Source: a candidate division CSSED10-310 bacterium (GTDB lineage Bacteria > CSSED10-310 > JAFGJC01). From it: 64,000 nucleotides of DNA. The notes beneath the pieces are model-generated. The model was given only the letters and a program-made list of their open reading frames with translations, made no database searches and had not been told where the DNA came from. The stretch is taken from positions 186,001 to 250,000 of the forward strand of contig JAFGLW010000001.1 in NCBI GenBank assembly GCA_016927905.1, in the 5' to 3' direction. This document shows, in pieces, positions 35,562 through 40,876 of this stretch (within the stretch, counting starts at the first letter, position 1; each line of letters begins with the position of its first letter). The translations under genes were made by a program, and so were the position numbers.

Positions 35562-35701
35562 TCGGTGTTTCAGCCTGCAGAAGCTGTTTAACGGTGATTG
35601 TGCATCCGGGTAGCCTCTTGACAAGAGAACCTGTTTTATGATTACGATATCGAGAAACATCGTGAGAATATAACCAGACATCTGCCTTGAAGGAGTCAAA
35701 A

Positions 35702-36709
35702 ATGAACAAGAAAAACAGAGAACCTGATTTCATGCCTGAGGTGGAGAATCTCCAGGAACAGATTGGTGCGCTTCAGCAACGCATCGATCTCGTTATCCAG
35801 AACAAGGAAAAGGTTCGACCCAAGATTTTTGAAAAAGTCAAAGCGGATTACGAGAAGAAACTGGAATCTCTTTTCAATGAATTGAATCCATACAAGGAAA
35901 AAATCGAAATTCAGATCGACTCGTTGCAGGATTCCATCGCCAAGTTGACCGATGAGATCGATTCTCTTGAAGAAGAGCAGGAAGAATTTGAACTGCGTTT
36001 CATCGCCGGCGAGTTTGGAGAGGATGATTACAAACCCAGACAGGAAGAATTCAATTCCATCATCGAAAACAAGAAAGCCGCCATTGAAGAGCGCAGGGAG
36101 GCCAGGGCACGCTACCAGACTCAACTGGCTTTCATCACCGGTGAGCCAGGCCGGGAGGAGGTCGAACCGGAAGCGGTTCCCGAGGAACCTCCCGAAGAAA
36201 TGGAAGAACCTTTAGAATCCCAAGAGGCCGATAACCGGGATTTTCAGGAATATGGCGACATGCAGGTTGACCAGGGAATCGAGCAAAACGTTGAAGAGGA
36301 ATATGAACGGGTTAAACTGGAAGATACTTCCGGCGGATTGTCTGAAACCGACCAGGAGCCTCTCGAACAACGCTCCGAACAGGCCGGAGGTGATGAGTAT
36401 ATCTGGACCAGCAAGCCGGTCCTGGATGTAATCGAAGGGGATTTTGCCGGGGAATCCTATCCCATGGACAAGGACAGAATCACCGTGGGCAGAGGACCCA
36501 ATAACGATATCCAACTTGCGACCGACACCAGCGTATCAAGACACCATTCCCAGTTAACCCGGGAAAATGACTGTTATGTTCTGGTTGATCTGGAAAGCTC
36601 GAACGGAACATCGGTCAACGGCACCAGAATCAACCGAACCTATCTCAAACCCAACGATGAGATCATGATCGGCCAGTCAAAGCTGATTATCCGCCCCTCC
36701 AAAGACTGA
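35702..36709 (+). CDS. Coiled-coil protein with C-terminal FHA domain
   Basis: ITVGRGPNNDIQLATDTSVSRHHSQL...LESSNGTSVNGTRI; aaggag RBS before ATG 35702. Confidence 0.9.
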   Translation: MNKKNREPDFMPEVENLQEQIGALQQRIDLVIQNKEKVRPKIFEKVKADYEKKLESLFNELNPYKEKIEIQIDSLQDSIAKLTDEIDSLEEEQEEFELRFIAGEFGEDDYKPRQEEFNSIIENKKAAIEERREARARYQTQLAFITGEPGREEVEPEAVPEEPPEEMEEPLESQEADNRDFQEYGDMQVDQGIEQNVEEEYERVKLEDTSGGLSETDQEPLEQRSEQAGGDEYIWTSKPVLDVIEGDFAGESYPMDKDRITVGRGPNNDIQLATDTSVSRHHSQLTRENDCYVLVDLESSNGTSVNGTRINRTYLKPNDEIMIGQSKLIIRPSKD

Positions 36710-36796: not shown

Positions 36797-37399
36797 ATGT
36801 CATTAAACATCTGGCTATTCATAAAGATTTCCGTATTCTTTTTCGGTGTGAGTTTCGCCGCCGCCTATCTGATTCACCGTTTGATATTTATATTCCACAA
36901 ACGATCCCTTATCAGGATATTTCCGGAGGCATTCGATATCTGTTTTTCACTGGTGAACGAATTCTTCGAAATCCTTAAGGGAGCTACACATGAAAACATC
37001 GATCGTTTCCTGGTACAGGTTGTCGCGCGGAAGAAAATCGATCTGCCCGGGACATTTCGCGATCTGCCTGAAAAAGTCGTTCGGGGTGCCTATCATGAGC
37101 TGGTCAAATTTCGAAAACGCCAGGAAGAAGATCCCGGGAAAATTCTGGATCAGATCCGCACAACAATCTACCAGCAATATTTTCAGTCTTATAAACGGAT
37201 CATCCTGTATGAAAGCTTGAACTGGCTTCTGGTTATCATTCCCCTGGCCATCTTGACGGGACTGATAATCCCCCTGGTGTTTTTTTTCCATATGCCCTAT
37301 GTTGTACTCAATTGGCCAGATCTGCTGACGGTGACGGGAATTGTGCTGACTGTCGGCACAGTGGTTGTGACTGTCCGGGATTATTTCCTGCGAGGTTGA
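36797..37399 (+). CDS. Hypothetical membrane protein
   Basis: N-terminal TM and two C-terminal TM segments; stop lies 4 nt before AsnB-like start. Confidence 0.6.
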   Translation: MSLNIWLFIKISVFFFGVSFAAAYLIHRLIFIFHKRSLIRIFPEAFDICFSLVNEFFEILKGATHENIDRFLVQVVARKKIDLPGTFRDLPEKVVRGAYHELVKFRKRQEEDPGKILDQIRTTIYQQYFQSYKRIILYESLNWLLVIIPLAILTGLIIPLVFFFHMPYVVLNWPDLLTVTGIVLTVGTVVVTVRDYFLRG

Positions 37400-37402
37400 C
37401 AC

Positions 37403-39277
37403 ATGAGCCTGATTTTCGGTGTAGTCGGCATAAAGGACACGGACATAGCGGACAGGATGTTCAAAATCATGTCTTTCCGCTCCAATACCGGTACCTGCCG
37501 AACCGTCGGACTGCCCATGGGATTCATCGCCGATGCGGATATGCCGGAATCGGCTTCGGAGCCTGGTTACGCACAGGCGGTTCTGGATGGATACATCGGA
37601 GATGGCCAGAACAAACCCGATTCATCCGGGATCACCATTCTGCACCGAACATTCTCTGAATACGGATCCTCGGGATTTGAACACATCTTCGGTTCGTACG
37701 CCGCGGCGTACTGGGATCCGGAGAATGCCTGTCTGTATCTCGTCCGGGATCCAGCCGGTTCCAGACCGCTGTACTACTCCGTGCGAAACGGCATTCTCAT
37801 ATTCGCTTCGTCACCCAAGGGTATTCTCGCGAGCGGACATGTGGAATCCCGGTTGAATCCGGCAGCTGTTTCACTGTATATGTCCATGATCGGAGTGCCG
37901 GACCCGGTCTGTATCTTCAAACACATCCACGCACTTCAGTCCGGCTGTTTTCTCAGATTTCAAAATGCCGACGCCCAGATTCACAGATACTGGACTCCTC
38001 CATGGATCGGAAGTAATGATGCCCTGCCTCAGGAAGATGAAATGGTTCACGATCTGCGTATCGCCCTGGAATCATCCGTCCGCGACGCCATTCCCGAAAA
38101 TGCCGGATCAACATGTTTTTTTCTCAGTGGAGGAACCGACACGTCGACAGTGGTGGGCCTGACGGCCAGCCAGGGAATTCAACCCATTCACACCTACACG
38201 ATCGGTTACGGCGGGATGGGCGGCGGTTATGCTGATTACAACGAGTTCGACTTTGCCAAGCTCGTATCCGAACGATTTAACACGATACATCGCGAAACGA
38301 CTTTTTCCCCTTTGCATGTGCTCTCCGCACTTCCCCGGATCATCTCCCATCTGGACCAGCCGTCCGGAGATGCGATCAACAGTTTTCTTGTTTCGGGATC
38401 GGTCAATCAAAAGCATTCCGTAGCGCTGACCGGTACGGGAGGTGATGAGATTTTTATTGGAAGTCAATGGTACACCCATCAATTGAAACTCATCCGGCTC
38501 TTGAACAGGTGGAATACGTTGCCGTCACTTTTACGGAATGTTTCATGGACCCTGACCTCTTTCTTCCCCTTCCTGCCGCTCGCTCGAAAACTCAAAGCGC
38601 TGAAAGCCCTTGAAGACGGTGTACCCGCTCAGTACCGGCACATCAAACTGCTGTATGGGGAAGACGAGATGAACAGGTTGTTCACCCCTTCTTTCCGATC
38701 GGATGGCAAGCCAGAGCGGACAGTCGAGGATATCATCAACCTGTATGATGATCAGCAAAGCGGCTGTGACGATCTGAACAGAATGTGCGGATTGCTTCTC
38801 CAGCATGAAGTAACCAACATCCAGCTCCGCGATCTGGATACGATGTGCCACGCAAACCGGTTGGAATCGAGAAGTCCCCTGCTGGATCGCAGGATTCTGG
38901 ATGTTCTGGCCCGTGTCCCTGGTTCGATGAAAGCACCCGATGGAAACTTGCGCCACCTGATGTTCACCGCTCTGCAGGATATTCTACCTTCAGAAACCCT
39001 GTCACGCCGGAAGATGAGTTTCATCGTGCCCATGGATTTATGGGCCAGGCGGGAATTGAAACCGGTCATCGATCGGGCCACGTCACCCGGTGTGCTGAGG
39101 AAACGGGGAATATTCAATCCCGAAGCCGTTGCCAGTGAATACCGGATTTTTTACCGGGACGGAAACCGTCATTCCTTCAAATTATGGCTTATGGTTATGC
39201 TTGAGATTTGGTGCAGGGTTAACATCGATCAGCCGGTCGGAACCTCTCCCCCGGAAAAACTCATCGAAATTTTCTGA
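37403..39277 (+). CDS. Asparagine synthetase B-like protein (Ntn amidotransferase-like plus ATP-PPase domain) lacking N-terminal Cys
   Basis: MSLIFGVVG (aligned with MCGIxGxxG), RDPAGSRPLYY, FFLSGGTDTS PP-loop, TGTGGDEIFIG, RSPLLDRRILD. Confidence 0.88.
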   Translation: MSLIFGVVGIKDTDIADRMFKIMSFRSNTGTCRTVGLPMGFIADADMPESASEPGYAQAVLDGYIGDGQNKPDSSGITILHRTFSEYGSSGFEHIFGSYAAAYWDPENACLYLVRDPAGSRPLYYSVRNGILIFASSPKGILASGHVESRLNPAAVSLYMSMIGVPDPVCIFKHIHALQSGCFLRFQNADAQIHRYWTPPWIGSNDALPQEDEMVHDLRIALESSVRDAIPENAGSTCFFLSGGTDTSTVVGLTASQGIQPIHTYTIGYGGMGGGYADYNEFDFAKLVSERFNTIHRETTFSPLHVLSALPRIISHLDQPSGDAINSFLVSGSVNQKHSVALTGTGGDEIFIGSQWYTHQLKLIRLLNRWNTLPSLLRNVSWTLTSFFPFLPLARKLKALKALEDGVPAQYRHIKLLYGEDEMNRLFTPSFRSDGKPERTVEDIINLYDDQQSGCDDLNRMCGLLLQHEVTNIQLRDLDTMCHANRLESRSPLLDRRILDVLARVPGSMKAPDGNLRHLMFTALQDILPSETLSRRKMSFIVPMDLWARRELKPVIDRATSPGVLRKRGIFNPEAVASEYRIFYRDGNRHSFKLWLMVMLEIWCRVNIDQPVGTSPPEKLIEIF

Positions 39278-39279
39278 TT

Positions 39280-40548
39280 ATGCGTATCCTTCTGCTCAAT
39301 CCCATGCCCCGGGGAAGCCCGGTTCCGACTTTCCCGGTTCTGCCCCTGGGGATCGCGTTGATTGCAGCCATTGCCAGACAAGGCGGCGCGGAAGTGACCG
39401 TTTTTTCCGGTCCGGATCTGAACCGTCGGATCTCAGATTACCTGGTTAACAACCGGCCCGATCTGGTGGGCATTCAGACGTTTGTCAACAATCTGGACAC
39501 GTGTTTTCGTCTGAGCGGATCGATCAAATCCCGTTGTCCTGAAACGGTGATTGTATATGGCGGAGTCCAGGCAACAAATTATCCGGACCGGGCATTTGAA
39601 TCACCCCATCTCGATTGTATTGTACCTGGCGAAGGGGAACTCATTTTTCACAACCTGATCGAAACTTTCGGGAATGGATTTCAGGGTGTTGACGGATTGA
39701 TCTGGCGCGATTCGGATGGTGTTGTCCGACGCAACCCGGGGCACAGGATAGTCGAAAACCTGGACGATCTGCCTCAAATCCCCTATTCTCTGTTTTACGG
39801 GCGGAATGCGGTTACCACCGGACACATCCTGACTCACCGTGGCTGCCCGTTCCATTGCAGCTATTGCCCGCTGCGGTTCAGAGCCGGCTCCACCATCCGG
39901 AAGCATTCACCCGAACGCGTCGTCTCGACGATCGAATACCTCCGTCGTGAGTTCAGGATCCGGCATTTGGAATTTTTCGATGAGAATTTTACCATGCATC
40001 CGGATCTCGTGGAGTCGATCTGCCGAGCCATGGAACCGATGAATTTAACCTGGAACTGCACTGCAAGGATATCCCAGATGAATCCTGAACTGGCTAATAT
40101 CATGGCCCGGTCAGGATGCCGGGAAATTCTGTTCGGAATCGGTTCCGGTGTTCCGAGATTGCAGGAAGTCCTGGGCACTTTCGAAGATCTCGACAAAGCG
40201 CCGGCATTGATCGAAAAAATTCGAAAAGAGGGCATTCGGGTCATTCTGGCTTTTTCCTTGGGAATTCCGGGTGAAACGAAGCTGGAATTCAACCATTCAG
40301 TCAAATATGCTCTCCGGCTGAAAGCGGACAGGGTGCGTTTCGATCCTTCCGCGCCATTGCCCGGGACGCGCCTGCATGAACTTGCCGGACAGGGCGGTCG
40401 TTTTTTAATTTCCACATGGGACGAATATCTGAATCCGGGCCAGATCATCTATCTGCCCGCCGGAAGGCGACCCGGGGAGTTCAAAATGCATTTGTATGCC
40501 GCGAAATTACGAGCGCGGTTTCAGTGTCATTTCATGAAACGCATATGA
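39280..40548 (+). CDS. B12-binding-domain radical SAM protein
   Basis: N-terminal cobalamin-binding-like fold (PLGIALIAAIARQGG...VIVYGGVQATNYP...CIVPGEGE) and CPFHCSYC rSAM motif. Confidence 0.9.
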   Translation: MRILLLNPMPRGSPVPTFPVLPLGIALIAAIARQGGAEVTVFSGPDLNRRISDYLVNNRPDLVGIQTFVNNLDTCFRLSGSIKSRCPETVIVYGGVQATNYPDRAFESPHLDCIVPGEGELIFHNLIETFGNGFQGVDGLIWRDSDGVVRRNPGHRIVENLDDLPQIPYSLFYGRNAVTTGHILTHRGCPFHCSYCPLRFRAGSTIRKHSPERVVSTIEYLRREFRIRHLEFFDENFTMHPDLVESICRAMEPMNLTWNCTARISQMNPELANIMARSGCREILFGIGSGVPRLQEVLGTFEDLDKAPALIEKIRKEGIRVILAFSLGIPGETKLEFNHSVKYALRLKADRVRFDPSAPLPGTRLHELAGQGGRFLISTWDEYLNPGQIIYLPAGRRPGEFKMHLYAAKLRARFQCHFMKRI

Positions 40549-40558
40549 ATGAGGAGAA

Positions 40559-40876
40559 ATGGATATGTCTGAAAAATTGCAGCAGAAAAAGATGAAATTT
40601 CATATCGACCCGCAAAACGAGGGCGGTCAGTATTCCAATATCGCCACGGTCATTCACTCCGAAACGGAATTCCTGGTTGATTTCGGTATGTTTCTGCCCG
40701 GTCGAGATTCAATTCGAATCGCCAGCCGGATTGTCCTGTCCCCCCGCACCGCCAAGCAATTCCTGATCGCTTTGAATCAGAACATTCAGAATTATGAATC
40801 GAAATTTGGCGAGATCCATCTGCCCAAGGGTCCGCCGACAATACACCATCCTTCCATGCCCGACATCGCCCAGTAA
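40559..40876 (+). CDS. DUF3467 family protein
   Basis: GGQYSNIATVIHSETEFLVDFG...RIVLSPRTAKQFLIALNQNIQNYESKFGEI. Confidence 0.8.
   Translation: MDMSEKLQQKKMKFHIDPQNEGGQYSNIATVIHSETEFLVDFGMFLPGRDSIRIASRIVLSPRTAKQFLIALNQNIQNYESKFGEIHLPKGPPTIHHPSMPDIAQ

Follow-up and report, generated by a model that had tools for sequence, protein, structure and literature searches.

Cys-less ligases with the AsnB fold are already known in the form of the beta-lactam and carbapenam synthetases and the lasso peptide cyclases. The beta-lactam and carbapenam synthetases have lost the nucleophilic cysteine of the fold and gained a glutamine-free reaction, and lasso cyclases are Cys-poor AsnB relatives. In these well-known cases, the enzymes that had lost the glutaminase site had turned to new chemistry, namely the formation of beta-lactam and carbapenam rings and of lasso peptides. 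Another AsnB-fold enzyme, the hydroxyamidotransferase TsnB9, delivers a nucleophile other than ammonia; we know of no B12-binding radical SAM partner of this enzyme.

We analyzed a stretch of 64,000 nucleotides (the window) from a genome of the phylum CSSED10-310 (G000; 3.118 Mb assembly, 31 contigs). It encodes a Cys-less AsnB-like synthetase of 624 amino acids, P0001 (37403..39277, forward strand), which was assigned on the basis of its open reading frame, an Asn_synthase domain, Cys-less orthologues, and its predicted fold. The protein consists of a degenerate glutaminase-type N-domain and an ATP-PPase synthetase domain. The gene for a B12-binding radical SAM protein of 422 amino acids, P0002 (39280..40548, forward strand), follows directly after the stop codon, as originally predicted, with a gap of 2 nt instead of the proposed 3 nt. 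After another 10 nt, a DUF3467 gene begins (40559..40876, forward strand), and a gene for an FHA-domain protein (35687..36709, forward strand) lies 5′ of the pair. A 200-amino-acid membrane-type protein without family match is encoded at 36797-37399; among the related loci it is present only in the genome of the window, and this lack of conservation ruled it out as a partner of the pair.

Neither P0001 nor P0002 reaches the cut-off of any named NCBIfam subfamily among its matches. The best-scoring model for P0001 is TIGR03108 (223.2 bits, cut-off 816.9), which describes XrtA/PEP-CTERM exopolysaccharide (EPS) amidotransferases. These enzymes and a Cys-bearing paralogue on contig C8 of G000 share the two-domain layout of P0001 and are its neighbors in the tree. 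In contrast to the P0001 clade, they retain the MCG, RRLxI, NGEIYN, and SDxE-type segments as well as Ser, Tyr, and Gly at positions 247, 354, and 539. AsnB itself (1ct9, TIGR01536) shares the fold, the PP-loop, and the conserved Lys segment, but the Glu of its SGEGADE motif is Thr or Leu in the Cys-less clade; P0001 moreover lacks Cys2 and the glutamine-binding residues, and its score of 204.6 bits falls short of the cut-off (267.1). Lasso peptide cyclases (NF033535) are likewise AsnB-type proteins and act as ligases on a carboxylate, and their model matches P0001 with 109.6 bits (cut-off 525).

The structure of P0001 was predicted with a pLDDT of 87 and a pTM of 0.90, and the model matches the structures of TsnB9, AsnB, and beta-lactam synthetase, which makes the assignment to this fold confident. 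TsnB9 (7ylz) is the best structural match (TM-score 0.71/0.76) at 18% identity. Beta-lactam synthetase (1jgt) and carbapenam synthetase (1q15) match structurally at about 17% and 13% identity in the structural alignments and are distant in sequence. P0001 shares with beta-lactam synthetase the AsnB fold devoid of the nucleophilic Cys, and the alignment is too distant for a confident placement of the Tyr-Glu catalytic pair of that enzyme.

Loss of the glutaminase site

The N-terminus of P0001 reads MSLIFGVVG and has no Cys at position 2, in agreement with the original prediction. An in-frame TGA at 37397-37399 is located two codons 5′ of the start, so that no alternative start is able to restore a Met-Cys N-terminus. 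The Pfam match to GATase_7 is partial (47.7 bits, residues 78-142 only), and the half that carries the nucleophile is missing. Orthologues from three further genomes, which are 45% (G002), 46% (G004), and 31% (G005) identical to P0001, begin with MGAIFG, MGALFG, and MANFLG, respectively. A sequencing error, which had been named as a way in which the prediction might fail, or chance can be dismissed as the cause of the missing Cys, since all three assemblies carry the Cys-less orthologue beside a B12-binding radical SAM gene. In this clade, Cys2 has genuinely been lost, and the loss is fixed. The idea that Ser2 serves as the Ntn nucleophile had to be abandoned; residue 2 is Ser, Gly, Gly, and Ala across the orthologues of G000, G002, G004, and G005, and thus Ser, which occurs only in the window protein, is not a conserved nucleophile.

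Next to Cys2, the remaining glutaminase site has been lost as well. Alignment of the four Cys-less proteins with ten Cys-bearing relatives showed that C2, G3, R41, N62, and E64 are replaced in all four. Each of them lacks the Arg of RRLxI, carries an invariant Asp-Gly-Tyr in place of Asn-Gly-Glu, and has a lost or unrecognisable SDxE segment. The eroded half of the pocket comprises residues 1-95 of P0001 (37403..37687, forward strand; C2 to S, R41 to F, N62 to D, and E64 to Y), and it also diverges faster: identity between orthologues is 14-36% in this part versus 34-58% in the remainder, which makes the N-terminal part about half as conserved. Among the columns conserved in the Cys-bearing relatives, the Cys-less clade retains 21 of 75 in the N-domain versus 50 of 83 in the rest of the protein. 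Judged from these substitutions, P0001 is almost certainly dead as a glutaminase, and the expectation that it would have no such activity while its synthetase domain looks functional is borne out at this level.

The synthetase half matches Asn_synthase (PF00733) with 208.3 bits against a gathering cut-off of 21. The motifs reported initially are present, with the PP-loop SGGTDTS at residues 242-248 (38126..38146, forward strand) and GTGGDEIF at residues 344-351, the latter being part of GTGGDEIFIGS (residues 344-354; 38432..38464, forward strand). A third segment, RRKMSFIV, covers residues 535-542 (39005..39028, forward strand). S242, G243, G244, D246, G344, G346, D348, E349, and K537 are invariant across 19 aligned proteins. 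Three clade-specific replacements lie within these same segments and were found in all four clade members, as revealed by a panel of 70 proteins: Ser247 to Thr (Ser in 65 of 66 relatives), Tyr354 to Ser (Tyr in 65 of 66), and Gly539 to Ser (Gly in all 66). Two rows of this panel that appear Cys-less (L007 and L010) contain MCGI 5′ of the chosen frame start. Such a combination of retained motifs and altered constant residues would be expected if the synthetase still works but has changed its nucleophile or acceptor, and not if the gene were decaying, and we infer from the sequence that P0001 is quite probably an active adenylating synthetase.

The Cys-less proteins form a single clade (support 100/100), and the Cys-bearing exopolysaccharide-type amidotransferases of the same phylum are its neighbors, with a support of 97/85 for the joining node, a value for which the bootstrap is not fully settled. 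In a profile search of 386 genomes, the four Cys-less proteins scored above 1050 bits and the next matches at most 421 bits, a gap that in part follows by construction, as the profile was built from these four proteins themselves. The next matches bear the Cys wherever this was checked, and the search revealed no Cys-less relative outside the phylum. Likewise, a second, overlapping sample of 385 genomes contained no further Cys-less relatives at E ≤ 1e-98, and a contig scan of the species genomes, which reaches only loci sharing two short peptide patterns, gave no Cys-less member beyond L045-L047. The known extent of the clade is only four genomes of one phylum. At the locus of the Cys-bearing paralogue in G000, inspection by eye identified a membrane protein resembling a polymerase as well as a flippase-like gene, and the EPS annotation of this locus stems from that reading of the sequences. 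The paralogue is directly followed there by a protein of 449 amino acids without Pfam or NCBIfam match (L036:10583-13878), and the arrangement is similar in G002 (L035) and G003 (L034). The loci of the Cys-bearing paralogue differ from those of the Cys-less clade in having no B12-binding radical SAM partner.

Conserved pairing with a B12-binding radical SAM protein

P0002 combines a B12-binding domain (PF02310, 48.5 bits, cut-off 32.1) with a radical SAM domain (PF04055, 66.6 bits, cut-off 29.5), and the three Cys of its CxxxCxxC motif at residues 189-196 (C189, C193, and C196) are invariant in the four orthologues. The same two domains are found in the ApyD, HpnJ, BchE, and AprD4 subfamilies. 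Of the radical SAM models, that of the RiPP enzyme ApyD scores highest (141.7 bits, cut-off 750), followed by HpnJ (134.9, cut-off 577.6), BchE (104.2, cut-off 481.35), and AprD4 (76.9, cut-off 500).

We found that the B12-binding radical SAM gene adjoins the Cys-less AsnB gene in the same orientation in all four genomes, and the check on conservation of the pairing that had been suggested at the outset thereby came out in its favor. In the most distant of them, G005, the gene order is swapped, and the radical SAM gene is located upstream of the AsnB-like gene rather than downstream. Adjacency is thus retained at 31-46% identity. That it outlasted a change of order, at an identity of about 31%, provides good evidence for a functional link between the two proteins, which quite probably work together. 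In three of the genomes the pair lies within a conserved block made up largely of housekeeping genes, and none of the genomes seen has a recognisable biosynthetic cluster around it. The pair is missing in G006 (87% complete) and G007. Its absence from G001 and G003 carries no weight, as the completeness of these assemblies is 69% and 60%, and a clear copy of the neighboring MTAP gene is missing from them as well.

Radical SAM genes of this kind also occur in other contexts. In G110, a relative of P0002 is encoded beside an FAA hydrolase, an MGDG-synthase-like glycosyltransferase, and a PMT_2-type protein (L138:3295-7976). No accompanying Cys-less AsnB was found in that genome, which implies that the radical SAM protein can act without one. 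In G005, two tandem, mutually similar SPASM radical SAM genes directly follow the pair (L033:10211-12480) and match the model of a tungsten-cofactor oxidoreductase maturase well below its cut-off. Contig C28 of G000 carries tandem B12-binding radical SAM genes (L139:6566-9460, from 314001), one of them 36% identical to P0002, and the two-match pattern is repeated in G002-G005 (L133, L134, L136, and L137). The whole genome of G000 (3.1 Mb) yielded 34 matches to the B12-binding radical SAM query at E ≤ 0.001, some genes being counted twice, which represents a large complement.

The original prediction had extended the grouping to DUF3467. Its two-enzyme core persisted in all four genomes; DUF3467 did not hold as a member. 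The DUF3467 domain itself is clear (PF11950, 81.8 bits, gathering cut-off 25), and its predicted structure is weak (pLDDT 52). Linkage of the pair to both the DUF3467 and the FHA gene in G000, G002, and G004 speaks for a larger unit with these proteins as working partners. In G005, however, both are located on other contigs while the pair persists, and DUF3467 is widespread (135 of 386 genomes) with unrelated neighbors. On these grounds we take the AsnB/radical SAM pair as the unit, regard the two neighbors as probably bystanders, and consider the larger unit highly improbable; DUF3467 as an essential partner was rejected. Within the phylum, DUF3467 also abuts an HpnJ-like B12-binding radical SAM gene in G005 (L124:8385-10137) and an apparent epoxyqueuosine reductase gene (QueG) in G007 (L126:2190-3806). 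As a general marker of cobalamin or Fe-S enzymes it was rejected, because tblastn revealed no B12-binding radical SAM, QueG, or AsnB relative beside it in any of 30 loci sampled elsewhere.

A candidate two-enzyme pathway

A search of the open-access literature returned nothing relevant on a pairing of AsnB with a cobalamin radical SAM enzyme. What is new here is a Cys-less AsnB clade paired with a B12-binding radical SAM protein outside the named subfamilies, an arrangement not described in the literature searched. With the pairing conserved, a modification or biosynthetic pathway, as suggested at the outset, is the natural reading. We propose, at roughly even odds, that the two proteins constitute an undescribed two-enzyme pathway, in which a glutamine-independent adenylating synthetase acts together with the B12-binding radical SAM protein. 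The AsnB-fold protein would no longer hydrolyse glutamine, and its synthetase half would use ATP to adenylate a carboxylate. The acyl-adenylate would then be passed to a nucleophile that does not derive from glutamine bound in the protein's own N-domain, such as an amine on the substrate or on a co-substrate. On the same molecule, the radical SAM protein might carry out a radical step, either a methylation or a C-C/C-H rearrangement.

Alternatively, P0001 might be an amidotransferase that forms the ancestral amide, or asparagine, from dissolved ammonia after dropping only its glutaminase half. The retained synthetase motifs are compatible with this, AsnB with a mutated Cys can still use ammonia, and the anoxic habitat may be rich in it. 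Nevertheless, S247T, Y354S, and G539S affect residues that are otherwise constant in the family, and plain amide synthesis leaves the conserved radical SAM partner unexplained, which renders the use of free ammonia rather unlikely. The altered synthetase residues, together with the eroded N-domain, would also suit a non-catalytic protein that serves as a scaffold or regulator of the radical SAM protein, but the strong constraint on the PP-loop, GxGGDE, and Lys537 in four diverged members makes such a loss of catalysis very unlikely.

Maturation of a ribosomal peptide (RiPP), with P0001 as peptide cyclase or ligase and P0002 modifying the precursor, could draw on the Cys-poor lasso cyclases and the NF033535 match of P0001, on ApyD as the top radical SAM model for P0002, and on the SPASM genes behind the pair in G005. 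Yet all model scores are far below their cut-offs, and no protease or transporter was recognised adjoining the pair. The search for a nearby precursor peptide suggested originally revealed none conserved across the four genomes, as all conserved small open reading frames overlap large genes. We therefore attach little probability to a RiPP pathway.

Returning to the proposed two-enzyme pathway, the relationship of the clade to Cys-bearing amidotransferases of the phylum's exopolysaccharide loci makes a building block of an envelope glycan or lipid the likeliest class of substrate, although this is a guess that may well be wrong. More tentatively still, P0001 might add another type to the Cys-less ligases with the AsnB fold, different from the beta-lactam, carbapenam, lasso, and macrolactam enzymes, which joins or cyclises a non-peptide substrate that a cobalamin radical SAM enzyme alters as well, and the pair might then belong to an undescribed pathway for a metabolite or an envelope component.

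Overall, members of a single uncultured phylum have a fixed glutaminase loss that goes together with a cobalamin radical SAM protein, and the two proteins offer enzyme discovery a specific pair that can be tested. In addition, the switched residues D62, T247, S354, and S539 represent a defined set for asking how the AsnB fold changes its nucleophile or acceptor.
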